From contig JANYJW010000037.1 in NCBI GenBank assembly GCA_025361705.1, positions 1 through 44,488 on the forward strand: a stretch of 44,488 bases of DNA, written 5' to 3'. A model generated the notes under the pieces. That model had not been told where the DNA came from and did not search any database. It saw only the letters and a program-made list of their open reading frames with translations. Of the stretch, positions 1-44,372 are shown piece by piece (position 1 is the first letter of the stretch; each line of letters begins with the position of its first letter). A program made the position numbers and the translations under genes. The DNA is from Gemmatimonas sp. GTDB lineage: Bacteria; Gemmatimonadota; Gemmatimonadetes; Gemmatimonadales; Gemmatimonadaceae.

Positions 1-405
1 GAAAACGTGCTGGCCGGCACGGCGCGTGTGCTTGCCGATGCTGCGCCCGACTGGCTCGAGGGCGACACGCCCCCGCTGGCGCACGGCAATCGCGCCATTG
101 AGTTCACGACGGGCGCACTCACGCTGTACACCGTCGGCGACTTTCCGTCCGAGGCAGGCTACGCGGTAATTCGCGCCGAGGAGATCGTGCTCTCGCTCGA
201 GCCGCCGACGGGCTCGGCGCGCAACCGGTTCCGTGGTGTCGTGGTGGAACTGGCGACGCTTGGCGCGCTCACCCGCGTCACCGTCGAGGTCGATGGCCTA
301 CCGATCATCGCGTCGCTGACAACGCGGTCAGCCAAGGAACTTGGGCTGGCGACGGGGTTGCCCGTGACGGCGTCGTTCAAGGCGATGGCGGTGCATCTAT
401 GCTGA
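1..405 (+). CDS. modC: ModC-like molybdate ABC transporter ATPase, C-terminal part (5' truncated)
   Basis: The open frame runs in from the window edge, so only about 134 C-terminal residues are visible. The ATPase core (Walker A and B, LSGGQ) lies outside. What remains begins with the NVLAG-type linker that follows the ATPase domain in molybdate/tungstate/sulfate importers. It ends in a TOBE/Mop-like beta domain (roughly the last 65 residues, RFRGVVVELATLGALTRVTV onward), which in ModC binds oxyanion or mediates regulation. I infer molybdate rather than sulfate or spermidine from the single Mop-like repeat and from molybdenum enzymes elsewhere in the window; the family call is firmer than the substrate. 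A heptad repeat array starts inside its TGA stop codon. Confidence 0.72.
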   Translation, partial: ENVLAGTARVLADAAPDWLEGDTPPLAHGNRAIEFTTGALTLYTVGDFPSEAGYAVIRAEEIVLSLEPPTGSARNRFRGVVVELATLGALTRVTVEVDGLPIIASLTTRSAKELGLATGLPVTASFKAMAVHLC

Positions 406-466
406 CGACAGACGGCAGACGGCAGACGGTAGATGGCAGATGGCAGGTGGCAGATGGCAGATAGCG
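404..466 (+). repeat. Heptanucleotide array, nine GAYGGCA-type units
   Basis: Nine consecutive 7-base units starting with GA or GG (GACGACA, GACGGCA twice, GACGGTA, GATGGCA and variants). The first unit starts at the second base of the modC stop codon. The array runs into the next open frame and supplies its first residues. Shortly downstream (about 514-537) a second 7-base pattern, GCGTACA GCGTACA GCCCACG, appears. Confidence 0.85.
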
Positions 467-2262
467 GGCCAGTGCTGGCATCCGCCGCCACCGCCGCCCC
501 TCGTACGGCCTCCGGCGTACAGCGTACAGCCCACGGCTGCTTTTGGGCGCTGATCGTGCTCGCCGCCCTGCAGGCTGCTTGGTACCGCCGCACCCTCAAC
601 CCCGACGGCGTCGCCTACCTCGACTTGTCGGATGCCGTGCTCGACGGACGCTGGGGCGATCTGGTGCAGGCGTACTGGAGTCCGGTGTATCCCGTGCTGC
701 TGGCCCTGGCTCGGCGCGTGGCGGGACGGGATGCGCTGCACGAGACGCTCATTGCGCACGGCGTGAACCTCGCGGGTTTCATGTTCGCGTTGCGCGGATG
801 GCACATGCTGCTCGCACAACTCGCGCGCCGACGCGTGGGACTGGTGGCGTTTGGCACGCCGCTGGGCATGGCCGCGGGGTACGCCGTCTTTGCGTGGGCC
901 ATGCTCTGGCTTACGTCTTTGCACTTCGTCACACCGGACCTGTGGCTTGCCGGGTGGATCTTCGCCGCCGCCGCGCTCGTGGTGCGTCACGACGAGACAG
1001 TGCGTGCGCACCTCCCACTGGCTTTGGGCGCTGCACTTGGTGCGGGGTACCTCACCAAGTCGGTGTTGCTGCCCGTGGCGCCGTTCTTCATTGCGGGGGC
1101 GGTGCTGCTGGCGCCCGGCGCCCAGCGTGTGCGGGTGGCGCTGCGTGCGGGGGCGATGCTGGCGCTCGTCGCCGGCCCGTGGATTGCGGCCATCTCCATG
1201 CACGCCAAGCGCCCGACATTTGGGGACAACGGCCGCTTCAATTATGCCTGGTTCGTGAATGGCGATCGCTGGCTGTCGCCCGATCCGCAGCGCGAATCAG
1301 GTCCCGGGGCCGCCGTCTTTCCGCGCGTTGTCGCGGCGCCGGCGACGTACGCGTGGCCCACTGCAGCGGGGACGTATGCGCCGTGGCGCGATCCCTCGTC
1401 GTGGCACAGTGAAATGACGGTGCGCGTGGACGCCGCGCGGCAGATGCGCGTGCTCACCCGATCGTGGAGTCAGTTGGCGTTCTGGATGGTCCCGTGGGGC
1501 GTGCTGCTGACCGTCATGGTGCTGGCTGGTGCGACAGTCTCGCGCGATGCGGTGCGTCCGGGGCTCGCGCTGGCGGTGCCGTCCGTGGGTGCGCTCGCTG
1601 GATATGCGCTCGTCTTCGTCGAGGGGCGGTATGTGGCGCCGTTCCTCGCGCTGCTTGCCGTGGCTGTGGTGGCTGCGCTGCGCCGCACACAGGTGCCGGT
1701 ACGCCGGCTCGTGCTCGCGGCGGCGGCTGGCACGGCACTGTGGATCGCGCTCGACATCCCGATCCCGGGACCAATGGAGCTGTTGATCGGCCTGCTCGTC
1801 TATGCTGGCATGGTGGCGCGCGGGGCGTGTCCACGACAGGTGGCGACCGTCGCCGGCGCCGCGATGATCACCATCGGCGGATCGCACGTGGTGTTTCGCT
1901 CCGTCGGCGAGGCGGCACAGCTCGCGGCGCACACGGCGATGGTCGACGGGGCGCTCGTCGTGCGCACGGTCCTGAAGACCGAGTCGTTTCCGGAGGGGCG
2001 GAGCATCGCAGTGATTGGCGATGGGCCGTCGTGTGCTGTCTGGGCGCGCGAGATCCGGGCGCGCATCGTTGCCGAAGTGCCCGCCTCACAGGCGGCGGCG
2101 TTCTGGGGTGCGGCAGACGAGGCGCGCTCGACCGTGGCTCGTGCGATGCGCGCGGCCGGCGCGCAGGAGATCATCGCCAGCGGCGTCCTGCCCGCCACGC
2201 TGCCGCCCGGCTGGCACCGCGCGAGCGCCAGCGTGGCGCGCTACGCGCTCGACGTCCCCTGA
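433..2262 (+). CDS. Polytopic membrane protein, GT-C-like (ArnT/PMT-type) glycosyltransferase
   Basis: A 609-residue protein with about ten hydrophobic segments. The first loop carries an acidic motif (NPDGVAYLDLSDAVLDG, about residues 55-71), the position where GT-C enzymes of the GT39/ArnT group keep their catalytic acidic residue, followed by a Trp/Tyr-rich stretch (YWSPVYPVLLAL). The family uses polyprenyl-phosphate sugars as donors and acts on the periplasmic face. The C-terminal 120 residues look soluble. The first 11 residues (MADGRWQMADS) are encoded by the heptad array, so the true start may be the in-frame GTG at 472. It overlaps the convergent DUF2304 gene by 22 bp. GT2/DUF2304 neighbours support a lipid-linked sugar role; substrate unknown. 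Confidence 0.6.
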   Translation: MADGRWQMADSGPVLASAATAAPRTASGVQRTAHGCFWALIVLAALQAAWYRRTLNPDGVAYLDLSDAVLDGRWGDLVQAYWSPVYPVLLALARRVAGRDALHETLIAHGVNLAGFMFALRGWHMLLAQLARRRVGLVAFGTPLGMAAGYAVFAWAMLWLTSLHFVTPDLWLAGWIFAAAALVVRHDETVRAHLPLALGAALGAGYLTKSVLLPVAPFFIAGAVLLAPGAQRVRVALRAGAMLALVAGPWIAAISMHAKRPTFGDNGRFNYAWFVNGDRWLSPDPQRESGPGAAVFPRVVAAPATYAWPTAAGTYAPWRDPSSWHSEMTVRVDAARQMRVLTRSWSQLAFWMVPWGVLLTVMVLAGATVSRDAVRPGLALAVPSVGALAGYALVFVEGRYVAPFLALLAVAVVAALRRTQVPVRRLVLAAAAGTALWIALDIPIPGPMELLIGLLVYAGMVARGACPRQVATVAGAAMITIGGSHVVFRSVGEAAQLAAHTAMVDGALVVRTVLKTESFPEGRSIAVIGDGPSCAVWAREIRARIVAEVPASQAAAFWGAADEARSTVARAMRAAGAQEIIASGVLPATLPPGWHRASASVARYALDVP

Positions 2263-2585
2263 TCGCGCGGTTGGTCGGGCGCGGCGAGTGCGCGGTCCTG
2301 CACCAGCTGGGTGAGCTGTCGCTCGAGTTGGCGAATGCGCGATGCGCTCGTCGCAAAGTGGAACAGGCTGAAGATGATGAACAGGTAGAAGACGAGGTCG
2401 GCGCCGCGGCCGATTCCCACCGTATGCGCCACCACGTTGGACGCGTCGGGAAAGAGGACGAGGGGCACGCCGACGCCCACCATCACCACGTAGAGCAGGC
2501 GGTCGCGCGGCGTGGTCCGCAGGCGGAAGAGGTAGAGCGCGAGCGCGGCGAGCAGGGCGATGAGCAGAATTTGGCTGCGCAGCAT
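2241..2585 (-). CDS. DUF2304 membrane protein
   Basis: A small protein of 114 residues with three hydrophobic segments (about 5-22, 30-48 and 62-82), the last ending in FYLFIIFSLFHFATSASRIRQLERQLTQLV as separate membrane and amphipathic parts. This matches DUF2304, usually encoded directly after a GT2 glycosyltransferase, where it is thought to help anchor or activate a polyprenyl-phosphate monosaccharide synthase. The ATG sits 5 bp after the stop of the GT2 gene, so the two are almost certainly co-transcribed. The C-terminus overlaps the opposite-strand GT-C-like gene by 22 bp. Confidence 0.75.
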   Translation of the reverse strand: MLRSQILLIALLAALALYLFRLRTTPRDRLLYVVMVGVGVPLVLFPDASNVVAHTVGIGRGADLVFYLFIIFSLFHFATSASRIRQLERQLTQLVQDRALAAPDQPRDQGTSSA

Positions 2586-2590
2586 GGGCG

Positions 2591-5308: not shown

Positions 5309-5340
5309 GTCGGTCTCTCGTGAGGAAGGAGGCACGGACG

Positions 5341-5401
5341 GCGTACTGCGGACAGCGTATCGCTCACCACGATCGTGAGCCGACCGCCATACGCAGTACG
5401 C
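5341..5401. repeat. Palindromic heptad element, GCGTAYG type, between ggt and yciI-like gene
   Basis: The left arm GCGTACTGCG (5341-5350) pairs perfectly with CGCAGTACGC (5392-5401), and an inner stem pairs GCTCAC (5362-5367) with GTGAGC (5375-5380). Both arms read as 7-base units (GCGTACT GCGGACA GCGTATC GCTCACC; GCCATAC GCAGTAC GCGGAGG). It sits 6 bp after the ggt stop codon on the minus strand and could act as its terminator. Confidence 0.75.
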
Positions 5402-5406
5402 GGAGG

Positions 5407-7317
5407 CTACCACCCGATTCCGTAGTCTTCCCCGTGATTTGATGCCGCGCCCCACAGGGTCTTGTGCTTGCGGTCGAGCAGGATGGCCGTGATGGGTCCG
5501 GAGGTGCGCTCCTCGAACTCGAGCGTGTATCCCATCCGCTGCAGGTCGCGCCGCACATAGAACGGCAGCGACTCGGCGGCCAGCATCCGCCCCGGCCGGC
5601 TCTCGTGCTGGCCAAAGGACGACCGCATCTGGAACGAGTTGATGTTTGGCGCTTCCACTGCCTCCTGCGGCGTCATGTTGAACTCGACGACGTTCAGCAG
5701 GAACTGCAGGAGATTCTGGTCCTGCGAATCGCCGCCCTGCACGGAGAAGGCGAGGTACGGCGCGCCGTCCTTGAGGGCCAGCGTGGGCGTGAGCGTGACG
5801 CGCGGGCGCTTGCCCGGCTCGATGACATTGAATGGTCCGTCGATGGCGTCGGTGACGAAGCTCTGCGCGCGTTGCGACAATCCCACGCCCGTGTGCCCGG
5901 CAATCACCGCCGGCGGCCAGCCGCCTGACGGCGTGACGGAAATGACCCAGCCCTCTTCATCCGCCGCCTGAATGGATGTCGTGCCCGCATAGAAGGCCTG
6001 CTTGAACGCCTCATCTGATGTCTGACGTCCGCCATCTGCCGTCTCTGGTGGCGTCAGCCGATCCTGCTGTCCACTCCGTGGCATGTTCGCCGCCGCCGGC
6101 AGCACCGTCCACGCATCCAGTTGCGCCTTCAGCGGGTTGGTGCGCCCCTCAAACGGATACGGGTCGCCCGGCTTGATGCCGGCGTCATTGCGCGACCAGT
6201 CAATCTGTGCGTACCGCGCCTTGCCGTACTCCTTGGAAAGCAGGCCCTTCATGGGCTGGCCCTGCACGAAAGCGGGGTCGCCGTAATAGAAGTCACGGTC
6301 GGCAAACGACATCGACATCGCCTGATACACCGTGTGCAGGTATCGCGCGCTGTTATAGCCCATCGCCTTGAGGTCGGCGTTCTCGAGGATGTTCAGCGCC
6401 TGCAGCAGCGCGGGTCCCTGCTGCCACTGCTGCAGCTTGAAGACATCGACGCCCTTGTACGTCGTGGTCAGGGGCTCCTCGATCTTTACCTTCCAGTTGG
6501 CGAGGTCCTGCATGGTGAACAGGCCGCCTTCCTCGCGCACGCCGCGCACGAGCTCCTGCGCGATGTCCCCGGTGTAGAACCTCGCGTACGCCGCGTAGAT
6601 GGCGTCCTTGCGGCTCTTGCCAGCCTTCAGGGCAGCCTGCTCGGCGTCCACGAGCTTGCGCAGCGTCACGGCGAGGTCCTTCTGCACGAACACCTCGCCG
6701 GCCTCCGGCGCTTCGCGCTTCTCGCCCAGGTGCGGCAGGTAGACGGCCGTGGAGTACTTCCATTCCTTGATCTTCTTCTTGTTGGTCTCAATCAGGTTCG
6801 CCGTCTGCGCCTCGATGGCGTAGCCGTCGGCCATCTCGATGGCCGGCGCGAGCACTTCCTTGAGCGAGAGCCGCCCGTATTCGGCGAGCATCGTCATCAG
6901 GCCGCCCGGCGTGCCGGGCGTCACGGCGGCCAGCGGCCCGAACTCGGGCGGATACCGGTAGCCCTTGCCGCGGTAGAACTCGGCGGTCGCGCCCGTCGGG
7001 GCGACGCCAAGCGCGTTGATGCCGATGACCTTCTTCAGCCCCGGGTGGTAGATGAGCGCCTGCGTCTCGCCGCCCCAGCTCAACACGTCCCACATCGTCG
7101 TCACGGCGGCGAGCATGGCACACGCGGCGTCAATGGCGTTGCCGCCCTTGGTGAACATCATCGAGCCGGCCGTGGCGGCCAGCGGCTTGCCCGTAATTGC
7201 CATCCAGTGACGGCCATGCAGCGGCGGCTTGTTGGTCTTCTGGGCCGAGGCAGGATTGGCAATTGCGACCAGCGTCGCGAGTGTCGCAAACAGGATGGCG
7301 ATCGAACGTCGGCGCAT
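5407..7317 (-). CDS. ggt: Gamma-glutamyltransferase (secreted, autoprocessing Ntn-hydrolase)
   Basis: A 636-residue GGT family protein that cleaves or transfers gamma-glutamyl groups, for example from glutathione. It has a signal peptide (RRRSIAILFATLATLVAIANPASA). The large subunit includes GGNAIDAACAMLAAV and TPGTPGGLMTMLAEYGRLSL. The processing site is GTTSIQ with the predicted nucleophile Thr446, followed by the small subunit with PSGGWPP and GPFNVIEPGKRPR. The usual TTH is TTS here. Just upstream, residues about 420-437 (PPETADGGRQTSDEAF) are encoded by an in-frame heptad array, at the mobile C-terminus of the large subunit. The start has a GAGGAAT Shine-Dalgarno. Divergent from the GH9 gene. 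Confidence 0.9.
   Translation of the reverse strand: MRRRSIAILFATLATLVAIANPASAQKTNKPPLHGRHWMAITGKPLAATAGSMMFTKGGNAIDAACAMLAAVTTMWDVLSWGGETQALIYHPGLKKVIGINALGVAPTGATAEFYRGKGYRYPPEFGPLAAVTPGTPGGLMTMLAEYGRLSLKEVLAPAIEMADGYAIEAQTANLIETNKKKIKEWKYSTAVYLPHLGEKREAPEAGEVFVQKDLAVTLRKLVDAEQAALKAGKSRKDAIYAAYARFYTGDIAQELVRGVREEGGLFTMQDLANWKVKIEEPLTTTYKGVDVFKLQQWQQGPALLQALNILENADLKAMGYNSARYLHTVYQAMSMSFADRDFYYGDPAFVQGQPMKGLLSKEYGKARYAQIDWSRNDAGIKPGDPYPFEGRTNPLKAQLDAWTVLPAAANMPRSGQQDRLTPPETADGGRQTSDEAFKQAFYAGTTSIQAADEEGWVISVTPSGGWPPAVIAGHTGVGLSQRAQSFVTDAIDGPFNVIEPGKRPRVTLTPTLALKDGAPYLAFSVQGGDSQDQNLLQFLLNVVEFNMTPQEAVEAPNINSFQMRSSFGQHESRPGRMLAAESLPFYVRRDLQRMGYTLEFEERTSGPITAILLDRKHKTLWGAASNHGEDYGIGW
6009..6043 (-). 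repeat. Heptad array inside the ggt coding sequence
   Basis: Five consecutive 7-base units on the minus strand (GACGGCA, GATGGCG, GACGTCA, GACATCA, GATGAGG) of the same kind as the intergenic arrays. With one flanking base they amount to 12 codons and keep the ggt frame open, encoding roughly ADGGRQTSDEA shortly before the processing threonine. Confidence 0.8.
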
Positions 7318-24560: not shown

Positions 24561-24564
<4 letters not shown>

Positions 24565-25984: not shown

Positions 25985-26023
25985 GTACAACGTGCAGGCC
26001 TCCAGGGGTGGGGGTGAGAACAC

Positions 26024-26057: not shown

Positions 26058-26097
26058 GCGTTCTATTAGATGCTTCCCAAACCGCGAGGCCCCCCCC

Positions 26098-26655: not shown

Positions 26656-26667
26656 CTGACGATTGAG

Positions 26668-26722: not shown

Positions 26723-26724
26723 TT

Positions 26725-27558: not shown

Positions 27559-27762
27559 GAGTGGCATTCCGTCGTGAGTGGTGATGCGACCCGTTGCTGG
27601 CAGTACCTCACTGGTTGCGCCTCGGTTTCCGCCTGAGTCGGCCGTCCGCGACACCTCCTCCCCCATTGGACCGTTCCGCGCTCGCGACGGTTTGCATGGA
27701 CCCCCGAGTGTCGGGCAGCACGCGATCGGCGTAGGTTCTGGCCATCACCTCAGGGGATACCG

Positions 27763-29622: not shown

Positions 29623-29629
29623 GCGGCGT

Positions 29630-30202
29630 TCAGCCGAGGTCGGCCACGGTATCGATGTCCCGGCGCACTCCCGCGTCATCCACCGCCACCTCGTGCACGC
29701 GCCCCCCGTAGGCGTGCACCACCGCCCGCGCGCCGCCATCCGCCACGGTCATCAGCTCGCGCCACGTCTCGCGCGCAAACCAGACGGGATGTCCGCGCTT
29801 GCCCTCGTGCACGGGCACTACGATGGGCGCCTCGGTGCGGCGCGCGGCGTCCACCACCGCCATTGCACTCGTCGCTTGTACAAACGGATGATCCACGGGC
29901 CAAACGAGCGCGCCTCGCACATCGGTGTTGGTGAGCTGCGCGAGACCGAGCCGCAGGCTGGTGACCTGTTCATCGGTCGCCCGCGTATTCGCGACCGCGC
30001 GCACGCCATCGGGCACCGCAACGCCCAGCGGCACGACAACGACAATGGGATCGGCCCCTGTGGTGCGGCACTGCTCCACGACGACGTCGAGAAAGCGCCG
30101 GCCATCAGGAAGCGTTGCGTTGACCTTGGGCTCGCCAAAGCGCGTCCCCGCGCCGGCCGCCAGCACAATCGCAGCAAAAGGGTGCTCCGTGAACCGGCTC
30201 AC
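29630..30202 (-). CDS. mocA: MocA-like molybdenum cofactor cytidylyltransferase (NTP transferase)
   Basis: A 190-residue GT-A-like nucleotidyltransferase: FAAIVLAAGAGTRFGEPKV near the N-terminus, the metal-binding WPVDHPFVQ, and GKRGHPVWFARETW, the block typical of the MobA/MocA family that recognises the cofactor. The C-terminal GGARAVVHAYGGRVHEVAV and DIDTVADLG also fit. MocA makes the cytosine-dinucleotide form of molybdopterin used by xanthine-oxidase-family enzymes. The start is a GTG overlapping the FAD-subunit stop by 4 bp (GTGA), so coupling with a molybdenum hydroxylase subunit supports the call. Confidence 0.82.
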   Translation of the reverse strand: MSRFTEHPFAAIVLAAGAGTRFGEPKVNATLPDGRRFLDVVVEQCRTTGADPIVVVVPLGVAVPDGVRAVANTRATDEQVTSLRLGLAQLTNTDVRGALVWPVDHPFVQATSAMAVVDAARRTEAPIVVPVHEGKRGHPVWFARETWRELMTVADGGARAVVHAYGGRVHEVAVDDAGVRRDIDTVADLG

Positions 30203-31164
30203 GTGGGGTCGAGCCGACGGAGCGCCCGCCGCAACAACGCCTGCGCCTGCCACACCTTGTATCCGTTGTGCTCCAGCGGCCTGGCGTCGTACATCGCCCG
30301 CTCGGCCAGCGCGTCGATGCTGTCGTCGTCGAGGCCGCCCGTGGCTGCGTCTTCCTCGATCGACGAGTTCACTCGACACGGCCCAAGCGAGACGCCGCCG
30401 AGTGCAATGCGCACGCCGCCGTCGATGCGACGGTGCGCAGCCAGCGACACCGTGGCAAAATCCCACGCGCCGCGCTGCATCAGCTTCTCGTAGAACTGGT
30501 TGCCGCCCATTGCGGTGGCCGGGACAAGCACGGCGCTGATGAACTCATCGGCGCCAAGGGTTGTCTCACCAGACGCATTGCGTGCCGCGCCGGCGAACAA
30601 CGCGTCGAGCGTCAACGTGCGCGTGCCCGCGGCACCCGTCACCTCCACCGTTGCCTCGAGCACCGTGAGCGCCGCCAGCGGATCGCTGGGATGCACGGCG
30701 TGACACGGCCCGGGCGTGAACAGCGCGTGGTAGTGATTCTCGCCACGCTCGGCCAGACAGTCGGCGCTGCCGTTCTTGAAGCATGGAAGCCCGCCGCGAA
30801 AGTACCAGCAGCGTGGGCGCTGGGCGAGGTTGCCGCCAATCGTGCCCATCGCGCGTAGCTGTGGTGTGCCCACCGACGCGGCCGCCTGCGCGAGCGAGGC
30901 GTAGCGTTCCAGCACGCCCGCATGCGTCGCCAGGTCGGCCATGCGTACCGCGCAGCCAATGCGCGCCGAGCCGTCGTCGTGCAGCACGATGTCGCGTGCA
31001 CCGGGCAGGCGCCGGAGGTCGACAAGTGTCGTGGGGCGCGCGATGTCTTCCTTCATCGCCACCAGCAGGTCTGTGCCACCGCCGAGCGGCACGGCAGCCG
31101 GCGCGCCGAGTGCGCGCGTGGCGTCTGCGGCGTCGGTGGCCTGATGGTAGGTGAAGGGATGCAT
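30199..31164 (-). CDS. Molybdenum hydroxylase FAD subunit with four-Cys [4Fe-4S] insertion (PaoB/YagS-like)
   Basis: 321 residues. FAD-binding motifs of the CoxM/XdhB family: PLGGGTDLLVAMKE (about 26-39) and AMGTIGGNLAQR (105-116). Directly after comes a Cys-rich insertion with Cys119, Cys128, Cys136 and Cys154 (RCWYFRGGLPCFKNGSADC and PGPCHAVHPSDPLAAL), as in E. coli PaoB and 4-hydroxybenzoyl-CoA reductase beta subunits, where these residues hold an extra [4Fe-4S] cluster. The C-terminal CO-dehydrogenase flavoprotein domain follows. It needs [2Fe-2S] and molybdopterin partners; none are adjacent, but both lie at 40433-43164. It overlaps mocA by 4 bp. Confidence 0.87.
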   Translation of the reverse strand: MHPFTYHQATDAADATRALGAPAAVPLGGGTDLLVAMKEDIARPTTLVDLRRLPGARDIVLHDDGSARIGCAVRMADLATHAGVLERYASLAQAAASVGTPQLRAMGTIGGNLAQRPRCWYFRGGLPCFKNGSADCLAERGENHYHALFTPGPCHAVHPSDPLAALTVLEATVEVTGAAGTRTLTLDALFAGAARNASGETTLGADEFISAVLVPATAMGGNQFYEKLMQRGAWDFATVSLAAHRRIDGGVRIALGGVSLGPCRVNSSIEEDAATGGLDDDSIDALAERAMYDARPLEHNGYKVWQAQALLRRALRRLDPT

Positions 31165-31212
31165 GCGACGAGGGGATCGACGGGGAGCGTACAGGGCGTA
31201 GTTTCTACAATC

Positions 31213-32370
31213 GTGACCTGCACATTCCAGCACAAGCTCACTGATTGCGCGTTCTCTCGCCACCTCCGCGTGGGAGCGCTGGCCACTGCAGTCGCCGCCG
31301 GCGTGGTGGCCTGTGATGGGTCGCCCAAGCCGTCCGCTGCTGCAGGATCACCTGTACCGGCGAAGGGCGCTGTCGCCGTCGTGGTTGACAGCACCGCGCG
31401 CCGCACCGCCGACTCGGCAGCGGCAATGGCTGCGGTGCAGGAGACCGCCGCCGCGCGCAAGTTGTCGCCAGCCGCCGACTCCATTGCGCCGTATCTGGTC
31501 TTCGTGCCCACCGAGGAACGCGCGCTCGTGGCGGCCGTGCGCAACAAGCAATGGCTGCTCGACGTGGGGCGCATCGACGTCGACCTTCGCAAGGACAGCG
31601 CCAAGGCGCGCGCGTTCCGCGAGGCGGCAGCCGTGGTCAGTCCCATTCCGCCGCGCACCACGTTCCGCCTGCAGTGGGCCCGGGGTGCCGAGGATGTCAC
31701 GGTCGACACCTTTGCCGTGTACAGCGGGCGCCTCGTGATGCGCGTGCTCGGTTCGCCCATGCTCGACAGTGCCGCGAGGGGCAAGGGGGTGTTTGCCGCG
31801 CTCGCGACGCGCGCCGACAGTGCGGTGCCGGCCGTTGCGACCACCTGCGACCTGCGCGTCGACCCCGACAGCGTGACGCGCGCTGCGTTGGCCGCGCTCA
31901 CGCCTGCGGCGAGCAAGGCGCAGGCCACCGCGCGCAGGCAGGCCGACAGCGCCTATGACGCGCGGGTGATGGCCGTGCGCGATTCGCTCGAGACGCTGCT
32001 GAAGCTCGAGCGTCCGCCGTACGAACGGCTGCAACGTCGCACCAAAGTCGTGTCGAGCCATGTGCGCGGCTGCTTTGGCACGGCGCGGCGCGCTCTTGTG
32101 GTGAGCGTACGTGCGGGCGACGCCGAGTGGGTGCGGGAGCGGCTGGTGACGGTCGCGCCCGACGGCGCCGTCACGGCGATGCGCATTGACGACCTGCGAT
32201 TCCGCGCGCACGAACTGCTCACGGCGTTCGACGCCGACGGAGACGGGGTAGATGACCTCGCGGTGAAGGGCGTCACCGAGCGTGCCGGTGGCACGGCGAT
32301 CCTGCGCGTCGACCTCGCGAAGAAGCGCGTCGAGCGGCTGGCGGCGGGTTTTGCGTGGGAGTCGTTCTAG
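31213..32370 (+). CDS. Lipoprotein of unknown function with a DxDxDG calcium-like motif
   Basis: About 385 residues if translation starts at the GTG at 31213; that start gives a positively charged N-terminus (FSRHLRV), hydrophobic segment and lipobox GVVAC followed by a low-complexity Ala/Ser/Pro linker. The mature domain contains FVPTEERALVAAVRNKQWLLDVGRIDVDL, a long charged helix (about 230-265) and a C-terminal FDADGDGVDDLAVKG, the DxDxDG loop seen in FG-GAP/VCBS-type calcium sites. The family is not recognised. Its divergent partner is the PaoB-like gene, 48 bp away, so promoters overlap. Confidence 0.65.
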   Translation: MTCTFQHKLTDCAFSRHLRVGALATAVAAGVVACDGSPKPSAAAGSPVPAKGAVAVVVDSTARRTADSAAAMAAVQETAAARKLSPAADSIAPYLVFVPTEERALVAAVRNKQWLLDVGRIDVDLRKDSAKARAFREAAAVVSPIPPRTTFRLQWARGAEDVTVDTFAVYSGRLVMRVLGSPMLDSAARGKGVFAALATRADSAVPAVATTCDLRVDPDSVTRAALAALTPAASKAQATARRQADSAYDARVMAVRDSLETLLKLERPPYERLQRRTKVVSSHVRGCFGTARRALVVSVRAGDAEWVRERLVTVAPDGAVTAMRIDDLRFRAHELLTAFDADGDGVDDLAVKGVTERAGGTAILRVDLAKKRVERLAAGFAWESF

Positions 32371-32380
32371 GCACGGCAAA

Positions 32381-32407
32381 GGCGGCGTGCACACGCGGCG
32401 CGCCGCC
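32381..32407. terminator. GC-rich hairpin between convergent genes
   Basis: GGCGGCG (32381-32387) pairs with CGCCGCC (32401-32407), with an additional GC-rich inner region, in the 58 bp between the lipoprotein and S9 peptidase stops. Confidence 0.55.
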
Positions 32408-32428
32408 CCCGGCCATACGTGATGCGGC

Positions 32429-34531
32429 TTACTTTATGGCGCTCATCCCCGGCTCGATCACCAGCGCCTGGATGAAGAACTCCATCATGCGCTGCGAGTT
32501 GAGCGCGCTGTGACCGATGTCGGGGCCCACCTGCACGTCGAAGCTCTTGCCCGCGCGCTGCAGCGCGCGAATCAACTGCATGGCGTTGTTGGGATGCACG
32601 TTGTCGTCGGCCGTGCCGTAGTAGATCATCAGCCGTCCCTTGAGGTTCGCGGCGTACTCCATGGCGCTTCCCTTCTTGTAGCCGGCCGCGTTGTCCTGCG
32701 GCGTATACATGTAGCGCTCGGTGTAGATGGTGTCGTAGTGATTCCACGCCGTCACGGCCGACTGTGCCGACGCGGCGGCGAAGACGTCGGGGTAGCGCAG
32801 CAGCGCCATGGCCGAGGCGAACCCGCCGTACGACGTGCCGAAGATGCCGATGCGCTTGGCGTCCACGTACGGCAGCGTGCCCAGGTACTTCGCCGCCTCC
32901 GCGAGATCGTCGATCTCCACCTGCCCGAGCTTCAGGTAGATCGCGTCGAGCGCCTTCTTGCCTAGGCCGGCGGCGCTGCGCGTGTCGAGCGTGACGACGA
33001 GAAATCCGTACTCGGTCATCGCCGCCGGTGCCGCAAAGCGCTCGCTGGCGCCGTTGGTGGCCGGGCCGTCGTACACCGAGAAGAGCACCGGATACTTCCT
33101 GGTGGGGTCAAAGCGAGACGGTTTGCTGAGCATGCCGATGTGCTTGGTGACGCCGTCGCCCGCCGTGTAGGTGAACTGCTCCACCGGCGTGAGCCCCGCC
33201 GCCGCGAAACCCGCGAGGTCGCTCTCGGCGATGGTCGCCACGGACTTCACCGTCTTGCCGCTCGCGTCCATCAGGCGCGTGGTCGGAGCGCTGGCGTACG
33301 TCTGCGCGATGTCGGTGAAGAACTTCCCGTCGGGTGAGACAGCCACCGTGTGCAGGAAGGCCGGGTCGGTGAGGCGCCGGTCGCCCTTGCCGTCGAGCCC
33401 CACGCGGTGGAGCTGCAGTTTCATGTAGTTGTCGCCGCTGCGCGCGTAGTACCAGAGCGCCTTGGCTTTCTCGTCGAGCCTCACGATGCCGGCCACTTCG
33501 AACGCGTGCTGCGTGAGCGGCGCGATGAGCCTGCCCGACAGGTCGTACAGGTAATAGTTCTGGAAACCGGTGCGCTCCGACTCCCAGATGAAGCGCGTGC
33601 CGTCGGCGAGCCATGTGATGCCAGGGGAGTTGTCAGTCCAGCTGGCGGGCCACGTCTCGCGGATCACCACGCGGCACGCGCCGGTGGCGGGCGCGCACGC
33701 GGCGAGCTCCATGATGTTCTGGCGGCGGTTGGCGCGATGGATCAGCAGTTCGCTGCCATCCCTGGTCCACGTGATGCCGTAGACGTAGTGGCCCACGGCG
33801 TCGTCGGTGAGCGGCTTGCCGTCGCGCGCGTCGATGCGCGTGCTCTTGCCCGTGGCGACCTCGTACACGAACAGGTCGACGATGGGGTTGGGCGTGCCGG
33901 CCTTGGGATATGCTTCGGTCATCAGCGCGCCCTGCACCGTCGTCTGTTCGGTCTGCAGGGAGAAGTCCTTTACCGGCTTCTCGTCGAAGCGGTAGTAGGC
34001 GAGCCTGGTGCCGTCGGGCGACCACCACATGGCCGTGGTCTGGTTGAGTTCCTCGCCGTACACCCACGACGCCGTGCCGTACTTGATGCGCTGCGCCTCG
34101 CTGCCGTCGGTGGTGAGCTGCTTTTCGCCGGAGCCGTCGCGATTGACGATGTACAGGTTGCGGTCGCGATAGAGTGCTTTCTTCGAGGAATCGGCGGTCC
34201 ATGACTCGGTGGCCTGGCGACCGCGCGCCGGGCCGCCCATGCGGCGCAGGTTGTCGATTGGGGCCGCCGCGCCGGACGGCGCGTCACCGACCTTCAGCGA
34301 CGCGATGTCAAAACGCAGCCGCTTCCCGTCCCTAATAAAATCGAACGACCTGCCGTCGTCAGCCCACTGCGCGGTCACCGCACCCGACTTGATGGCGCCC
34401 TGCGCCTTGGGCAGCATCGCCATGTAGCGATCGTAGCCCGGCATCGACCTGATGCGGTCCTGCGCGTGCAGCGGAAGCGAGACGAGCACGAACAGCGCGG
34501 AAGCGGCGAGGCAAGTCGATGGAAGGCGCAT
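32429..34531 (-). CDS. Secreted S9B prolyl oligopeptidase family peptidase (DPP-IV-like)
   Basis: A 700-residue serine peptidase with signal peptide (ASALFVLVSLPLHAQ), an eight-bladed propeller N-domain (WWSPDGTRLAYYRFDEKPV; ASWVYGEELN, the Glu-Glu region that in DPP-IV holds the substrate N-terminus) and an alpha/beta hydrolase domain. Catalytic residues: Ser567 in FGTSYGGFA, Asp642 in YYGTADDNVHPNN, His674 in IGHSALNS. YTERYMYTPQDN is the DPP-IV family block after the active-site serine. Expected activity: release of N-terminal dipeptides, preferably X-Pro, in the periplasm. The His region (GHSALN rather than DHGI) is somewhat unusual. Confidence 0.92.
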   Translation of the reverse strand: MRLPSTCLAASALFVLVSLPLHAQDRIRSMPGYDRYMAMLPKAQGAIKSGAVTAQWADDGRSFDFIRDGKRLRFDIASLKVGDAPSGAAAPIDNLRRMGGPARGRQATESWTADSSKKALYRDRNLYIVNRDGSGEKQLTTDGSEAQRIKYGTASWVYGEELNQTTAMWWSPDGTRLAYYRFDEKPVKDFSLQTEQTTVQGALMTEAYPKAGTPNPIVDLFVYEVATGKSTRIDARDGKPLTDDAVGHYVYGITWTRDGSELLIHRANRRQNIMELAACAPATGACRVVIRETWPASWTDNSPGITWLADGTRFIWESERTGFQNYYLYDLSGRLIAPLTQHAFEVAGIVRLDEKAKALWYYARSGDNYMKLQLHRVGLDGKGDRRLTDPAFLHTVAVSPDGKFFTDIAQTYASAPTTRLMDASGKTVKSVATIAESDLAGFAAAGLTPVEQFTYTAGDGVTKHIGMLSKPSRFDPTRKYPVLFSVYDGPATNGASERFAAPAAMTEYGFLVVTLDTRSAAGLGKKALDAIYLKLGQVEIDDLAEAAKYLGTLPYVDAKRIGIFGTSYGGFASAMALLRYPDVFAAASAQSAVTAWNHYDTIYTERYMYTPQDNAAGYKKGSAMEYAANLKGRLMIYYGTADDNVHPNNAMQLIRALQRAGKSFDVQVGPDIGHSALNSQRMMEFFIQALVIEPGMSAIK

Positions 34532-34566
34532 GGTGGCGGGCGGAAGTCGGAGGGGTCAGACGTGAA

Positions 34567-34594
34567 CGCGGCGCATCCGGATGGGTGCGCCGCG
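34567..34594 (-). terminator. Hairpin terminator after the ChaN-like gene
   Basis: CGCGGCGCA (34567-34575) pairs perfectly with TGCGCCGCG (34586-34594), 11 bp past the ChaN-like stop on the minus strand and before the S9 peptidase start, so it would insulate the two genes. Confidence 0.65.
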
Positions 34595-34604
34595 AGCGAC
34601 ACGG

Positions 34605-35630
34605 TCAGTTGGACGATGCGGGTGGCTTAGGAGCGGCGGCCGGTGCTGCAGGCGGAACCGCGGCCGGCGCGGGCAGCGTCGCCGACTTGGGCGGTGCGGG
34701 CGGCTTGAGCGTGTACACGATGTAGTCGCCCTGCTTGCGGATCTTCTTGCCGTCCACCGCGTCGAGGTCCGTGGCGGGCACGAAACTCACCACGGCGATG
34801 CGCTGGCCGGGCAGCCGACGCCCGGCGCGGTCGGCCGTGCCCATGGTGAAGTCGGAGTGAAACGAGCCGTTGACGTGCACCACGATGGCGTCGGGGTACT
34901 TCTCGCGCGCACTCGCAATGGCCTCGCCCATCGTCTCATCCTTCACGCACTGCGCGTCATAAAAGCGGCCAATCATCGCCTCGGCTTCCTGCGCCGTGAT
35001 CTTCTGGCCGTGGCCGCTCATGTCGCCCATCGTCTCCTTGAAGCGCGCATAGTATTTGTCGCGCGGGCAGGTGAGCTGGGCCGCCACGAATGCGCGGTCC
35101 GTGGCCGGAAGCGAATCGACGCCGATGAGTCCCTTGCGGCCGACCAGCGATGCCAGGCGGCGCGGTACGTTGCCGGCAATCACCGGCCACCCCTTGGCCT
35201 TGGCGAACTCGACCATTGGGCGATAGTCGGTGACGTACTTGGGCCACGGACGCGAGGCCTTGAGGAAATCGGCCTCGGCCATCCTGCCGGCCAGATACTC
35301 ATTGAGGCTTGGCTGCGCGTCGCGCTCGAACATCTCCATCGCAAGCACCACACTCCCACGGCGACGCCCGATGCCCTCGAGTGCGGCGCGTTCCAGGCGG
35401 TGCGTGCCCGGATCGTCGTGCTCTTCGCCAAGGAAGACGACGTCGGCCTTGGCGACCTCGGCGAGCATCGACTCGAAGTCCTCAAAGCGCTTCTTCCCCG
35501 ACCGGTACACCCGGTGCGGCGTGTACGACGAGACCGAAGCGATGTGGCGCGAAATCTCGGAATCGGGAGCAACGACCGCCTGAATAGTTGGTGCCTGTAG
35601 AGACAAAAGTAAAATAGATGTCAGAAACAT
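34605..35630 (-). CDS. ChaN-like haem-binding/TIKI-fold exported protein
   Basis: 341 residues with a short signal sequence (FLTSILLLSLQAPTIQAVVA). The ChaN family core (PF04187) is clear: VVFLGEEHDDPGTHRLERAA, SVVLAMEMFERDAQPSLNEYL, GWPVIAGNVPRRLASLV, and near the end AIVVHVNGSFHSDFTMGT. ChaN proteins are outer-membrane-associated, bind haem in Campylobacter, and share a fold with TIKI proteases. The C-terminus adds a Pro/Ala-rich tail of about 30 residues. The start lies in an AT-rich divergent region with no Shine-Dalgarno. Confidence 0.84.
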   Translation of the reverse strand: MFLTSILLLSLQAPTIQAVVAPDSEISRHIASVSSYTPHRVYRSGKKRFEDFESMLAEVAKADVVFLGEEHDDPGTHRLERAALEGIGRRRGSVVLAMEMFERDAQPSLNEYLAGRMAEADFLKASRPWPKYVTDYRPMVEFAKAKGWPVIAGNVPRRLASLVGRKGLIGVDSLPATDRAFVAAQLTCPRDKYYARFKETMGDMSGHGQKITAQEAEAMIGRFYDAQCVKDETMGEAIASAREKYPDAIVVHVNGSFHSDFTMGTADRAGRRLPGQRIAVVSFVPATDLDAVDGKKIRKQGDYIVYTLKPPAPPKSATLPAPAAVPPAAPAAAPKPPASSN

Positions 35631-35737
35631 TATTAGTCTTTTGTTGGGTGTTTGCCAGTCTGGGCTGGCGCAAAGAGCAAAACAAAAATAAACTACTAAA
35701 TCATATTTACTGGATTGGCCTTCTGTTCGACATTGGT
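35631..35737. promoter_or_regulatory. AT-rich divergent promoter region with an inverted repeat
   Basis: About 105 bp, strikingly AT-rich against a GC-rich background, between the ChaN-like and Fic-like genes. It holds an inverted repeat TTTGCCAG / CTGGC-GC-AAA (about 35649-35672). The frame of the Fic-like gene stays open back to 35618, but TTA/TTG/AAA-rich codons there argue for promoter, not coding, sequence. Confidence 0.45.
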
Positions 35738-36604
35738 GTGGTTCGTGCCCTTGAAGATGCCGTCGATGCGCTCGCTCGCCTGGATGACCAGGTGGCGGGC
35801 ATGCCGGCTGGCACGGCCACGCTCGTGATGCTACGCAGCGCTCAAGCTATCGTTGCCGCGAGCGATCGGCCACTTCACGCCGCCCCTGCCATAAACGCGC
35901 CGTTCGCCGCACTCCTCGGATGGTGGTACTCGCCGGAGGCGCGGGAGTTCATAGTCGACGATGTGCCGCTGCGCACCACCGCCGTGGCGCTCGATGCCGC
36001 GGCGGGCACGGTGATGGCTGGCCGCACGCTGACGCTTGGCTTGCTGGACGATGCGATGCGTGCCGCGGAGGCCGGCACCTACCAGCTTCCCTCGCTCTTC
36101 GATGCCCCGTTGCGACGGGCAGAGGCGGAGGGTTGGCCTGCGCTGCTGCTTGCCGCAGAACTTTCATCGGGCGCCTGCGCTCACGTGCGCAGCGTTACCG
36201 CCTCGATGGCACGGGCCGTGGCGCCGCTCACCGGCAATGTCTGCGCCGGCGCGTTCGTCGTGCCGCCGCGCGCCGACCATGTGCCTGGCGCGTTGCACGC
36301 ACTGGCGAGCGAAGCGCGCGCCGTCCGCCGGCGCGTCGATGCCTATCGCGGTGCCTGCGGGCGCGCGGCCGACCAGTGCGACACGTTCGGCCGCGGGGGC
36401 GACTCGGCGCTTGCGCTGCTGCGCCTGCTCGCAGGCACCCCGGCCGTGACCATCGCCCGCGTGTCGTCGGCGTTGGAGGTGACGGTGCCCACTGCGGGGG
36501 CCGCGGTGGAACGGCTGCTGGGGGCCGGACTGCTGCGCGAACTCACTGGCCGCGGGCGCGACCGGGTGTTTGCCTACGAGCCGGCGATCGCGCTAGCGGG
36601 CTGA
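35738..36604 (+). CDS. Fic-like protein lacking the Fic motif (Fic-N helix plus C-terminal winged helix)
   Basis: 288 residues from the GTG chosen here (328 from an ATG at 35618). The N-terminus, RALEDAVDALARLDDQVAGM, resembles the Fic_N segment that precedes Fic AMP-transferase domains. The C-terminal 60 residues, TIARVSSALEVTVPTAGAAV and GLLRELTGRGRDRVFAYEPA, closely match the winged helix ending many Fic proteins. In between there is no HPFxxGNGR motif and no inhibitory helix motif, so AMPylation is not expected. It may be a transcription regulator descended from a Fic protein, or a DUF1612/RHE_PE00001-type DNA-binding protein; both are inference. The last 31 bp overlap the convergent thioredoxin-like gene. 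Confidence 0.6.
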   Translation: MVRALEDAVDALARLDDQVAGMPAGTATLVMLRSAQAIVAASDRPLHAAPAINAPFAALLGWWYSPEAREFIVDDVPLRTTAVALDAAAGTVMAGRTLTLGLLDDAMRAAEAGTYQLPSLFDAPLRRAEAEGWPALLLAAELSSGACAHVRSVTASMARAVAPLTGNVCAGAFVVPPRADHVPGALHALASEARAVRRRVDAYRGACGRAADQCDTFGRGGDSALALLRLLAGTPAVTIARVSSALEVTVPTAGAAVERLLGAGLLRELTGRGRDRVFAYEPAIALAG

Positions 36605-37134
36605 ACGGCCGCCGAGCGCTCGAGCAGCGCGGTCATCTCGTCGAGGATGGTGCGTCCCTTGTCGACGGCGTACCAGCGGCGGATTTCCTTGTTGCGCTCG
36701 GGCTTTTCCAGCTGCTTCCACTCGGCGACGACGCGCTGCTGCAGCGGGCCGGGGCGGGGACCCCACCAGCCGAGCTCCTGATAGTCGGCATCGAGAACGA
36801 TGACGACCGGGATGGAGCGCGCAGTGCCGTTGGTCAGGTGCGTGTCCATCAACTCCGGGTACGCGTCGCGGCCGACCACACGCAGGTCGAGGTTGGACGC
36901 CGCGTTGGCGAGGGCGCTGACGACTGGCACGCTGCTCTGGGAGTCGATGCACCAGTCCTCGGAGATCGCGAGGAGGTGCCACTGACCGCCCAGCGCCTCG
37001 ACGCGCGCGAGGAGGTCGGCGGGCACGAGGGCGCGATCACGCTGCGCCTTGAACAGGGGGCCGTAATCGGCGGAGGCGGCGGCCATCGTGTCGAACTCGA
37101 CGGCATCGCTGAAGTAGTCGCGGAGGGTTTTCAT
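36574..37134 (-). CDS. Thioredoxin-like protein (Thioredoxin_9 type) with a CxxS site
   Basis: 186 residues of thioredoxin fold: HLLAISEDWCIDSQSSVPVV carries Cys62-Ile-Asp-Ser65 where thioredoxins have CxxC, the cis-proline is in RSIPVVIVLD, and the conserved GWWGPRPGPLQQRVV follows. The family (PF14595) is annotated as thioredoxin-like with unknown partners. With one Cys, disulfide reduction by the usual dithiol mechanism is unlikely; a monothiol or isomerase-like role is possible. No signal peptide, so cytoplasmic. The start is next to an AT palindrome and a G-rich tandem repeat that lie upstream. Confidence 0.8.
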   Translation of the reverse strand: MKTLRDYFSDAVEFDTMAAASADYGPLFKAQRDRALVPADLLARVEALGGQWHLLAISEDWCIDSQSSVPVVSALANAASNLDLRVVGRDAYPELMDTHLTNGTARSIPVVIVLDADYQELGWWGPRPGPLQQRVVAEWKQLEKPERNKEIRRWYAVDKGRTILDEMTALLERSAAVQPASAIAGS

Positions 37135-37171: not shown

Positions 37172-37292
37172 AGGGGTGCGGGCGGGTGCGGGCGGGGGCG
37201 GGCGGGGGCGGGCGGGTGCGGGCTGGGGCGGGCTGGTGCGGGCGGGTGCGGGCGGGTGCGGGCGGGTGCGGCGGGTGCGGGCGGGGGCCCTG
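37172..37292 (+). repeat. G-rich 10-bp tandem repeat (GGGCGGGTGC), about eleven copies
   Basis: About 120 bp of near-perfect 10-mers, mostly GGGCGGGTGC with variants GGGCGGGGGC, GGGCTGGGGC and GGGCTGGTGC; one copy has lost a base. The plus strand carries dozens of GGG runs, so intramolecular G-quadruplexes are very likely. It fills the leader between a -10-like box and the M23 lipoprotein gene. Confidence 0.88.
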
Positions 37293-43203: not shown

Positions 43204-43279
43204 GACGCCGTGGGCTGTACGGTCCCTTCGTCCGCAACGGCCGTGCACGGACAGCGCATGGCGTATGGCCCACGGCGTC
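43204..43279. repeat. 76-bp palindromic heptad element in a divergent promoter region
   Basis: Perfect 12-base arms GACGCCGTGGGC (43204-43215) and GCCCACGGCGTC (43268-43279). The next six bases pair as well if G-U pairs are allowed, and an inner GTCCG/CGGAC stem follows. The right side reads in 7-base units (GCGCATG GCGTATG GCCCACG GCGTCAC). A 15-mer, GCCGTGGGCTGTACG at 43207-43221, occurs inverted at 523-537. Confidence 0.8.
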
Positions 43280-43362: not shown

Positions 43363-43626
43363 ATGCCGTACGTCATCACTGAAGCTTGCATTGGCACCAA
43401 GGACAAGGCGTGCGTCGATGTGTGCCCCGTGGACTGCATTTACGAGTCCGCGGACCAGCTCTACATCCACCCCGACGAGTGCATTGACTGCGGGGCGTGC
43501 GAGCCGGAGTGCCCGGTAACGGCGATCTTCCCGGAAGAGGACGTGCCGGCCAACCTGAAGACCTACATCGCGAAGAACCGCGACGTGTTCACGGGGCCGA
43601 ATCCGCCGGGGAAGCCGACGAGGTAG
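43363..43626 (+). CDS. Ferredoxin, 7Fe/8Fe bacterial type (FdxA-like)
   Basis: 87 residues with two cluster motifs: CIGTKDKACVDVCPVDCIYE at the N-terminus (Cys spacing with seven residues between the first two, as in [3Fe-4S][4Fe-4S] ferredoxins) and CIDCGACEPECPVTAIF. The C-terminal KTYIAKNRDVFTG extension fits the family. It is a low-potential electron carrier; its cluster demand links it to the SUF operon, and its position beside the molybdenum hydroxylase may be meaningful or chance. ATG with a CGAGGATCACC leader containing GAGG. A heptad array starts at the last base of its stop codon. Confidence 0.93.
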   Translation: MPYVITEACIGTKDKACVDVCPVDCIYESADQLYIHPDECIDCGACEPECPVTAIFPEEDVPANLKTYIAKNRDVFTGPNPPGKPTR

Positions 43627-43712
43627 ATGGCAGACGGTAGACAGTAGATGAAGGGCCCGGCGGATGGATCCGCGGGGCCCTTTGCATTGCCTGCCATCTG
43701 CCAGCTGCGGTC
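43626..43712. repeat. Mirrored heptad array flanking the ferredoxin terminator
   Basis: Left arm starts at the G of the ferredoxin TAG: GATGGCA, GACGGTA, GACAGTA, GATGAAG (43626-43653). The right arm carries the inverse units TGCCATC and TGCCAGC, then TGCGGTC (43692-43712). Between them lies the hairpin at 43651-43682. The array sits between convergent genes. Confidence 0.85.
43651..43682. terminator. Strong hairpin terminator, ferredoxin / methyltransferase-like gene
   Basis: AAGGGCCC (43651-43658) pairs with GGGCCCTT (43675-43682), and inside it GCGGAT pairs with ATCCGC across a two-base loop, giving an almost fully paired 32-bp hairpin followed by TTTGCATT on the plus strand. Confidence 0.8.
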
Positions 43713-43722
43713 TCCCGTGTCC

Positions 43723-44334
43723 TTAGAACAGCCCGTTCGGGAAGTACCGATCCTTCCCCACAAACACGATCAGCAGCGCGATGTACTGCATGAACGTGCT
43801 GATCTCGCTCTTCCACGCTTCGGCCCAGAAGAATTCGCCATCCACGGCGCCGGTGGCGCTGGTCGGAATCCAGCGTGGCGTGCGGCGCTTGAACGCCAGA
43901 TACTCCTCGCCAAAGATCGACTCGAGCACGCCCTCTTCGTAGCGCACGATGAAGTAGTACTCGATGGCGAACAGCACGCAGGCGACGGGAATGAACCACC
44001 AGACGCCGCTGATGGTCACGAAGCCGAGCCAGAGCAGCAGGTTGCCGTTGTAGAGCGGGTTGCGGCTGAGCGCAAACGGTCCGTGCGTCACGAGCTTCTG
44101 CACGTTGCGCGACCGGCGGCGCGTGACGGTGCCCGCGGTGGCGACACCCCACAGGCGCCATGCCTCGCCGAGCACGATGAGAATGACACCCACGATGACG
44201 CCCGTGCGGGTGATGCCGCCCGCCGCGAGCAGGGGGACGACGAGGAACGGCACGGGCAGCCAGCCGCGATTGCGGAAGATCACGCCGCCGATGCGGGCGG
44301 GGCGGGACGTCTCCGAAGCTGAAAATGTGGTCAA
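43723..44334 (-). CDS. Isoprenylcysteine carboxyl methyltransferase-like membrane protein
   Basis: 203 residues, four or five membrane segments, with the ICMT/PEMT family block LVTHGPFALSRNPLYNGNLL (about 82-101; the SRNPLY-type SAM-binding motif) and RYEEGVLESIFGEEYLAFKRRTPRWIP (given here as family landmarks, with the Glu-Glu-Tyr near the end of the catalytic region). Bacterial members methylate lipids or small substrates; the substrate is unknown. The last 40 residues (DGEFFWAEAWKSEISTFMQ) form an extra hydrophobic tail beyond the core. The upstream side carries a short heptad array. Confidence 0.82.
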   Translation of the reverse strand: MTTFSASETSRPARIGGVIFRNRGWLPVPFLVVPLLAAGGITRTGVIVGVILIVLGEAWRLWGVATAGTVTRRRSRNVQKLVTHGPFALSRNPLYNGNLLLWLGFVTISGVWWFIPVACVLFAIEYYFIVRYEEGVLESIFGEEYLAFKRRTPRWIPTSATGAVDGEFFWAEAWKSEISTFMQYIALLIVFVGKDRYFPNGLF

Positions 44335-44340
44335 ATCAGT

Positions 44341-44372
44341 GATGGCGGATGGCGGATGGCAGATGGCGGACC
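44341..44372 (+). repeat. Short heptad array between alpha/beta hydrolase and methyltransferase-like genes
   Basis: Four complete units (GATGGCG twice, GATGGCA, GATGGCG) and the start of a fifth (GACC), 7 bp upstream of the methyltransferase-like ATG on the minus strand and therefore in its leader, or in the tail of the alpha/beta hydrolase gene. Confidence 0.82.

Follow-up and report, generated by a model that had tools for sequence, protein, structure and literature searches.

Tandem repeats with a 7-base period occur at several places in the window analyzed here, a stretch of 44,488 nucleotides from Gemmatimonas sp. (contig JANYJW010000037.1 of assembly GCA_025361705.1) that forms contig C19 of the host genome G000, a 2.97-Mb draft. 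The SufB protein of this host shares 91% identity with that of a metagenome-assembled genome (MAG) filed under Gemmatimonas and 90% with that of one filed under Gemmatimonadaceae, which points to a member of the Gemmatimonadaceae as the most likely host. The repeat units stand head to tail, with no spacers between them, and in the window mostly read GAYGGCA or GCGTAYG. They lie beside or within genes encoding a TOBE/Mop-domain (ModC-like) protein, gamma-glutamyltransferase (GGT), SufU, SufB, a ferredoxin-domain protein, and a PEMT-family protein. Genes were called with our own codon-usage script, which missed the ferredoxin-domain open reading frame (ORF) and may have misplaced starts, so that distances to start codons are rough. 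The elements of the window are as follows.

404 to 465, plus strand: G-rich heptamer array (GAYGGCA) starting within the TGA that ends the ModC-like gene; score 41.
506 to 537, plus strand: short GCGTACA array between the 404–465 array and the next gene, whose start is uncertain.
5338 to 5406, minus strand: GCGTAYG hairpin directly 3' of the GGT stop; fold z −4.4; as an array, p 0.033.
6009 to 6044, minus strand: heptamer array in frame within the GGT gene; the insert varies by species and is 21 nt shorter in two congeners.
18670 to 18755, minus strand: array over the SufU TGA stop, with GAGGGCA to GATGGCR units and then GACGTCA-like units; score 59.
23035 to 23130, minus strand: sufB-sufC spacer hairpin, G-rich arm after the SufB TAG and C-rich arm toward sufC; z −5.5.
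43204 to 43279, strand not assigned: palindrome (GACGCCGTGGGC...GCCCACGGCGTC) with weak GCGTAYG-like units, seen by eye; lag-7 p 0.012.
43622 to 43648, plus strand: G-rich arm that starts at the TA/G of the ferredoxin-domain ORF.
43649 to 43690, strand not assigned: central GC-rich hairpin between two arms; whole element z −6.7.
43691 to 43722, minus strand: mirrored C-rich arm that abuts the stop of the PEMT-family gene.
44341 to 44370, plus strand: GATGGCG array of 4.3 units; lag-7 p 0.0003.

An earlier, sequence-only reading of the window had listed nine stretches as 7-base arrays. We compared the best lag-7 score of each listed stretch against 3,000 shuffles of the same stretch and thereby confirmed the arrays, seven stretches standing clearly above their shuffles and the other two weakly. 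The p value was 0.0003 for each of 404–466 (score 41), 514–537 (10), 6009–6043 (11), 18668–18751 (57), 23044–23129 (19), and 44341–44372 (19), and 0.002 for 43626–43712; the weak cases were 43204–43279 (p 0.012) and 5341–5401 (p 0.033). Predicted folds reached z scores of −5.5 (23035–23131), −6.7 (43620–43715), −4.4 (5338–5406), and −3.6 (18664–18752), and the lone array at 404–470 folded unremarkably (z −1.8). The placement at stop codons described in that reading also proved accurate, with an array starting inside the ModC-like stop (T/GA) at 404, another over the SufU stop at 18750, a third one base past the SufB TAG, and a fourth at the TA/G of the ferredoxin-domain ORF ending at 43626. 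One correction applies: the array at 6009–6043 lies within the GGT gene.

Within 383 kb of G000, the match rate of noncoding DNA was 0.317 at lag 7, 0.306 at lags 14 and 21, 0.289 at lag 28, and 0.266 to 0.291 at the remaining lags from 2 to 30, and coding DNA carried only a 3-base rhythm, without a lag-7 signal. Noncoding segments scoring at least 14 numbered 22 at lag 7, compared to 1 at lag 8 and 0.55 in base shuffles. These figures carry a sampling bias, as 10 of the 20 G000 stretches lay on contigs already listed by pattern search and the window itself was picked for its arrays. The lag-7 excess is smaller in stretches not selected for arrays. The 10 G000 stretches outside the listed contigs (140 kb) gave 0.304 at lag 7 compared to 0.275 to 0.290 at lags 4 to 11, with three segments scoring at least 12 at lag 7, none at lag 8, and two at lags 5 and 11. 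Unselected stretches of G001 gave 0.327 versus 0.286 to 0.303 (15 segments; lag 8 had 2 and lag 11 had 7), and those of G003 only 0.289 versus 0.265 to 0.287 (4 segments; lag 8 had 2). Lag 7 leads in other phyla as well, with 44 segments compared to 2 for lag 8 and 6 for lag 9. Two G005 stretches were taken around listed pattern matches and the sufB stretches around SufB; two loci that read as N (L152 and L179) were excluded from the array tests, each adding one N row to the lag counts.

The pattern (GAYGGCR)3 had 91 + 137 = 228 overlapping matches in G000, compared to 3 + 12 for the same pattern read backwards, a control that shares GACGGCA-like units with the pattern and is therefore not a clean zero. 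It was present in 11 of the 41 genomes searched, 10 of them within the genus (G000 included). G003 had 0 forward and 205 control matches because its word is GACGGTA. Across four genomes, family-word arrays were 73-fold denser outside genes (56 versus 7). The proposal of a dispersed family with period 7 and mirrored arms was borne out. Both kinds of unit that had been described, GAYGGCA and GCGTAYG, were seen, but they look like two words of one phenomenon rather than separate families, because in G003 the polymerase loop and the dehydrogenase site described below, which hold heptamers in other congeners, are occupied by units of the GCGTACG type.

Arrays are often paired. Neighboring arrays at most 200 nt apart, drawn from Gemmatimonadota and other phyla, were inverted in 35 of 38 pairs, and the G-rich arm came first in 33 of those 35; as the reverse complement of such a hairpin keeps its arm order, this G-first order holds on both strands. 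A reverse-complement partner in the same spacer was found for 26 of 75 arrays in our genus and family sample (3.7% in control spacers), for 12 of 25 in 33 named Gemmatimonadota loci (controls, 1.6%), and, among 47 loci from other phyla, for 21 of 40 (controls, 0.5%). At one Acidobacteria locus (L120) several words occur together, each with its own partner arm (4 pairs; partner versus nonpartner p 0.0005). An in-register palindrome test, in which 48 of 54 exceeded the mean of the permutations, was discarded because the register had been chosen to maximize the observed score.

We read the spacer between the codirectional sufB and sufC genes in nine genomes of the genus, taking the words by eye. 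A mirrored heptamer hairpin is kept in seven of the nine, with the G-rich arm at the SufB stop and the C-rich arm toward sufC, and it is written in five words: GATGGCR (G000 and G001), GATGGTA (G004 and G006), GACGGTA (G005), GACGGTT/G (G010), and GACGG[CG]A (G002). These seven spacers folded at z −2.5 to −8.8 with 33 to 43 pairs (eight were folded in all). That the hairpin lies between codirectional genes argues against a terminator. Among 22 more distant relatives, several have other mirrored words, such as GACGGAA (L052), GTAGGGA (L071), and GGGCTGC (L072, from the cultured relative Roseisolibacter sp. H3M3-2), and about one-third have a short, plain spacer. Three further orthologous spacers showed present and absent states of the element, with differing words; at orthologous locus 4 only 4 of 10 congeners have it. 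Two other details of orthologous spacers were recorded. The sufB-sufC spacer of a Gemmatimonadaceae MAG (L063) holds the Xanthomonas word GGGAATC beside TGCAGAG. At orthologues of locus 3 (L221, L223, and L224), a central hairpin (GCGCCACGC..GCGTGGCGC in several) lies between convergent genes; on either side of it stand mirrored CACGGAGGA-type repeats in some congeners but heptamers in G000, and by eye the outer arms seem exchanged.

Words also tend to agree within a genome. For 71 arrays from 10 genomes of the genus (one arm per element, GAYGG core), word identity over the 7 positions was 0.83 within and 0.77 between genomes (p 0.0002), and at positions 3, 6, and 7 it was 0.61 versus 0.47 (p 0.0002). 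The whole test series gave p 0.007 for all 114 arrays, 0.0002 for the 88 left when the core filter removed 26 arrays with other words, and 0.0002 for the 71 left when the one-arm filter removed 17 more. The usual word is GACGGTA in G003 (5 of 6), GATGGGA in G008 (4 of 5), and GACGGG[AG] in G002 (3 of 3); in G010 it is mostly GACGGT followed by a seventh base that varies, GATGGCA/G is the word of both G000 and G001, and G005 is mixed. GACGGTG/T is common to the sufB spacer, two other spacers, and the GGT, polymerase, and dehydrogenase genes of G010. No common loop or flank was detected among the 114 elements, apart from one same-genome pair sharing 23 bp. Since unlinked loci share spacer words but no other detectable sequence, it is the unit, not the element, that seems to spread. 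The tendency of the word to differ by species suggests that the copies of a genome are rewritten together.

Arrays also occur in frame inside protein genes. Heptamer-type inserts were present in seven of nine GGT orthologues (e.g., ADGGRQTS, VDGRRQTV, and VDGGRWTVDGGRQ); the genes of G006 and G007, 21 nt shorter than that of G000, hold at most one or two units. In the G009 gene one unit reads, by eye, GACGGCA where GACGGTA would place a TAG in frame. The GGT insert region is identical in two "species" (L246 on G004:C89 and L245 on G009:C65), perhaps owing to a misbinned contig in one MAG.

A second coding site is a loop of a DnaE-type polymerase whose best NCBIfam match is an error-prone DNA polymerase (partial, below the cutoff). 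Heptamer arms fill this loop in all 10 congeners read (lag-7 scores of 15 to 35), and the G000 insert has a predicted stem of 3+8+21 pairs (z −8.5). In five congeners the heptamers lie beside the peptide AEKQQ, with a clear 11-base repeat in four of the five; this repeat, AGAGACAACAG, adjoins the heptamer arm at L256, L258, L259, and L261. Outside the genus we read the best-scoring 26 loci from 55 other family genomes searched (one, L297, ends before the right anchor). Among these best 26 the loop was bare (29 to 33 amino acids) in 12, longer in 13, and unreadable in 1, and heptamers were found in 2. The G015 loop has GGCATCA and GAGTCAC, which are rotations of words in the spacers of that genome. 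A loop in G050 (L285) holds repeated QVLRSAQDDKK peptides, a different repeat family.

A linker of an aldehyde dehydrogenase carries heptamer stretches in all seven readable orthologues of 10, the other three loci lacking the left anchor used for reading; as no bare orthologue was found, "insert" here means a linker by position. Single in-frame cases occur in an acyl-CoA dehydrogenase, RmlD, a PfkB kinase, and an E2 linker. The words of coding inserts vary between species and match the spacer word only in part, clearly so in G010, G002, and (for the polymerase) G006.

Array edges fell between −6 and +3 bases of a stop codon for 19 of 75 in the genus and family sample (10% under random placement), slightly more often than random for the named Gemmatimonadota loci (6 of 34; 12%), and for 11 of 40 in other phyla (10%). 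This is the fair version of a first test (19/75, 7/34, and 15/41) that had cut arrays at the stop codon. The enrichment at stops anticipated by the sequence-only reading therefore holds in the genus and family sample, but arrays are not special to stop codons: they also run through the spacer toward the next start and sit in frame mid-gene. By spacer type, 14 arrays lay in 234 divergent, 24 in 151 convergent, and 102 in 705 codirectional spacers. Given the arrays in frame inside genes, the anchoring most likely reflects the edge of coding constraint, not a target.

The arrays, then, are tandem arms of 7-base units. Two arms of the same word often lie opposed, the G-rich one 5' and the C-rich one 3', with a long hairpin as the predicted fold; a site keeps this build while its word changes between species, and unlinked loci of one genome share spacer words. 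Our preferred explanation, held tentatively and with somewhat less than even confidence, is a dispersed, palindromic, satellite-like heptamer DNA that expands by slippage and is homogenized between loci by template switching or conversion. Replication would stall at the hairpin, and the nascent end would slip by whole units, changing their number. At times it might switch template to the partner arm or to a distant array, copy a few units, and return, which would spread one word over many loci as a dialect and keep the arms complementary. Arrays would persist where selection permits, from the stop codon on and in protein loops; the hairpins might incidentally affect how mRNA folds or decays at operon junctions, which the model does not require. 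Of the mobile or template-driven element that had been suggested from the sequence, the general class, DNA that is copied or moves at the DNA level, is the better one, while a repetitive extragenic palindromic (REP) sequence or a shared body is not supported. The wider claim is more doubtful: several phyla may possess nontransposing palindromic DNA identified only by its 7-base word, which interlocus copying would rewrite genome-wide into species dialects, in spacers and in the loops of proteins with housekeeping roles, among them a DNA polymerase of the error-prone type.

Several observations weigh against copying between loci. No conversion event was observed directly. In a register-free test the two arms were not demonstrably matched in the order of their units (29 of 44 exceeded the mean of the shuffles, 5 of 44 reached p ≤ 0.05, combined p 0.13), which fits the copying of a few units better than that of whole arms. 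In G000 (3 pairs, p 0.45) and in G010 (4 pairs, p 0.26), partner arms resembled each other no more than other arms did, and the model does not account for the G-first polarity. G006 holds GATGGTA and GACGGCA side by side. Two sufB-sufC spacers are without the paired build: that of G009, where SufB is partial, carries GATGGGA on one side, its second arm being made of different units, and does not fold beyond chance (z +1.5), and that of G007 (L135) has weak traces only. The polymerase and dehydrogenase genes of G000 and G001 use GACGGGA where their spacers use GATGGCA/G, and GACGGC units in the G004 polymerase and GTACGGC units in the G003 dehydrogenase likewise differ from the spacer words. 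Finally, the GAYGG core is constant through the genus (88 of 114 arrays), which could mean constraint.

That core would also be consistent with a trans-acting factor, nucleoid-associated, gyrase-like, or RNA-binding, that reads the heptamer and whose specificity drifts with all sites following, as in uptake-sequence dialects. The genome-level word bias agrees with such a factor, but no candidate was found, other genomes carry several unrelated words (as at L120), and coding DNA of four genomes showed no clear species-matched enrichment of single words: relative to expectation, GATGGCA stood at 0.62 to 0.79 and GACGGTA at 0.42 to 0.86, GATGGCG and GACGGCA exceeded 1.2 in all four, and GACGGGA was at 1.2 in G000, 1.5 in G001, and 0.7 in G006 and G003. 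We consider this improbable. Somewhat less so, though still unlikely, is selection for hairpins at gene ends, where they would protect or process mRNA (between genes of one operon, as at sufB-sufC) or would insulate convergent genes, the words being free to drift because only the pairing counts. Pairing is indeed retained while words change, array edges are enriched at stops in all three samples, and arrays are fewer in divergent than in convergent or codirectional spacers. Pair drift at single loci, however, would not give unlinked loci one word, and such selection sits poorly with in-frame, mid-gene hairpins that have no gene-end role, with the element's occurrence in only 4 of 10 congeners at locus 4, and with terminator-like sites at chance frequency (9 versus 9.6 expected between 18000 and 37000).

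Plain polymerase slippage, in which 7-base units expand by chance and loci exchange nothing (a view that PMC4679880 attributes to Mrazek 2007), draws on the statement there that heptamers are the commonest long repeat class in most genomes, and on the lead of lag 7 in other phyla. It does not yield inverted partners, G-first polarity, or shared words at unlinked loci; already weakened by these, it strikes us as about as improbable as the trans-acting factor. A true transposable palindrome with an unrecognized enzyme would account for filled and unfilled orthologous sites (in different species), but the elements have no common body or ends beyond the word, and a Y1 transposase occurs in only 2 of 11 and a reverse transcriptase in only 1 of 11 genomes of the genus, neither of them G000. 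We regard it as very unlikely.

Known classes of repeat were set aside as follows. The expectation that these are neither REP sequences nor ordinary terminators proved sound: the Y1 transposase (PF01797) expected of REP sequences with a REP-associated tyrosine transposase (RAYT) is absent in G000, and stems with a T run were at chance (18000–37000 only), with no T run seen by eye after the sufB-sufC arms. We also rejected repeats written by reverse transcriptase (PF00078, absent in G000), known structured RNAs (no Rfam match at gathering score in the window), miniature inverted-repeat transposable elements or other shared-body elements (114 elements, as above), and the uptake-sequence model, the species' word being not clearly overrepresented through coding DNA of four genomes. 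G-quadruplexes were rejected as a general cause, GGG occurring in 21 of 114 genus arrays and in 3 of 25 and 3 of 40 elsewhere.

REP sequences and bacterial interspersed mosaic elements (BIMEs) with a RAYT are extragenic palindromes at gene ends and operon junctions; G000 lacks the Y1 transposase, and the arms here are tandem heptamers. DNA uptake sequences have species dialects of a short word and inverted pairs near gene ends; no clear species-matched single-word enrichment in coding DNA was seen here. The closest precedent lies in Xanthomonas and Nostoc, where, according to Rehm 2015 (PMC4692102), heptameric repeats of GGGAATC and GGGGA(C/T)T are mostly noncoding and become fewer between divergent genes. 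Within 50 bp of stops their G-rich strand is the sense strand, and some of them overlap the stop codon itself. In Xanthomonas 70 and 75 cases of convergent inverted pairs were described, in Nostoc few, and between relatives the repeats vary in length and sequence. This precedent covers much of what had seemed surprising in the window: a tandem 7-base unit, mainly noncoding, in convergent pairs with a G-rich sense arm near stops. The differences from those GGGNATC heptamers are that GGG is mostly absent here, that words differ between congeners at one site, and that genes for metabolic enzymes and a polymerase contain arrays in frame. Rickettsia palindromic elements (PMC10969869), families of about 150 bp with a conserved peptide, likewise lie in frame in unrelated metabolic genes as well as between genes; the palindrome is tolerated in frame here too, but copies share only a 7-base word and no body of that length. 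The TAACTGA repeats of Beggiatoaceae, cyanobacteria, and Bacteroidetes are, in MacGregor 2015 (PMC4679880), similarly dispersed intergenic heptamer arrays, with indels in steps of 7 between close relatives; unlike ours, they have one word, lie mostly upstream of starts in the main genome described, and include one inverted case. The literature searched, mostly outside subscription papers, contained no report of heptamer dialects, Gemmatimonadota heptamers, or in-frame heptamer inserts. As far as it shows, four features are new: the turnover of words at fixed sites, the bias toward certain words within a genome, the independence of G tracts, and the in-frame sites.

Short dispersed repeats that evolve in concert are well known among eukaryotic satellites; to our knowledge, little like it has been described in bacteria. 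Fixed sites with word turnover between congeners would give a countable record of interlocus copying, and at the coding sites such turnover is seen to alter whole stretches of protein sequence. An edge of constraint, instead of targeting, offers an explanation for stop-hugging repeats both in Xanthomonas and here.

Two other repeats were seen in the window. A 10-base tandem array (GGGTGCGGGC, 11 copies, 92% match) lies in a divergent spacer at 37174–37285, its period differing from that of the heptamers, and a perfect 14-bp hairpin with a weak T tail lies 3' of a short gene at 26023–26058.

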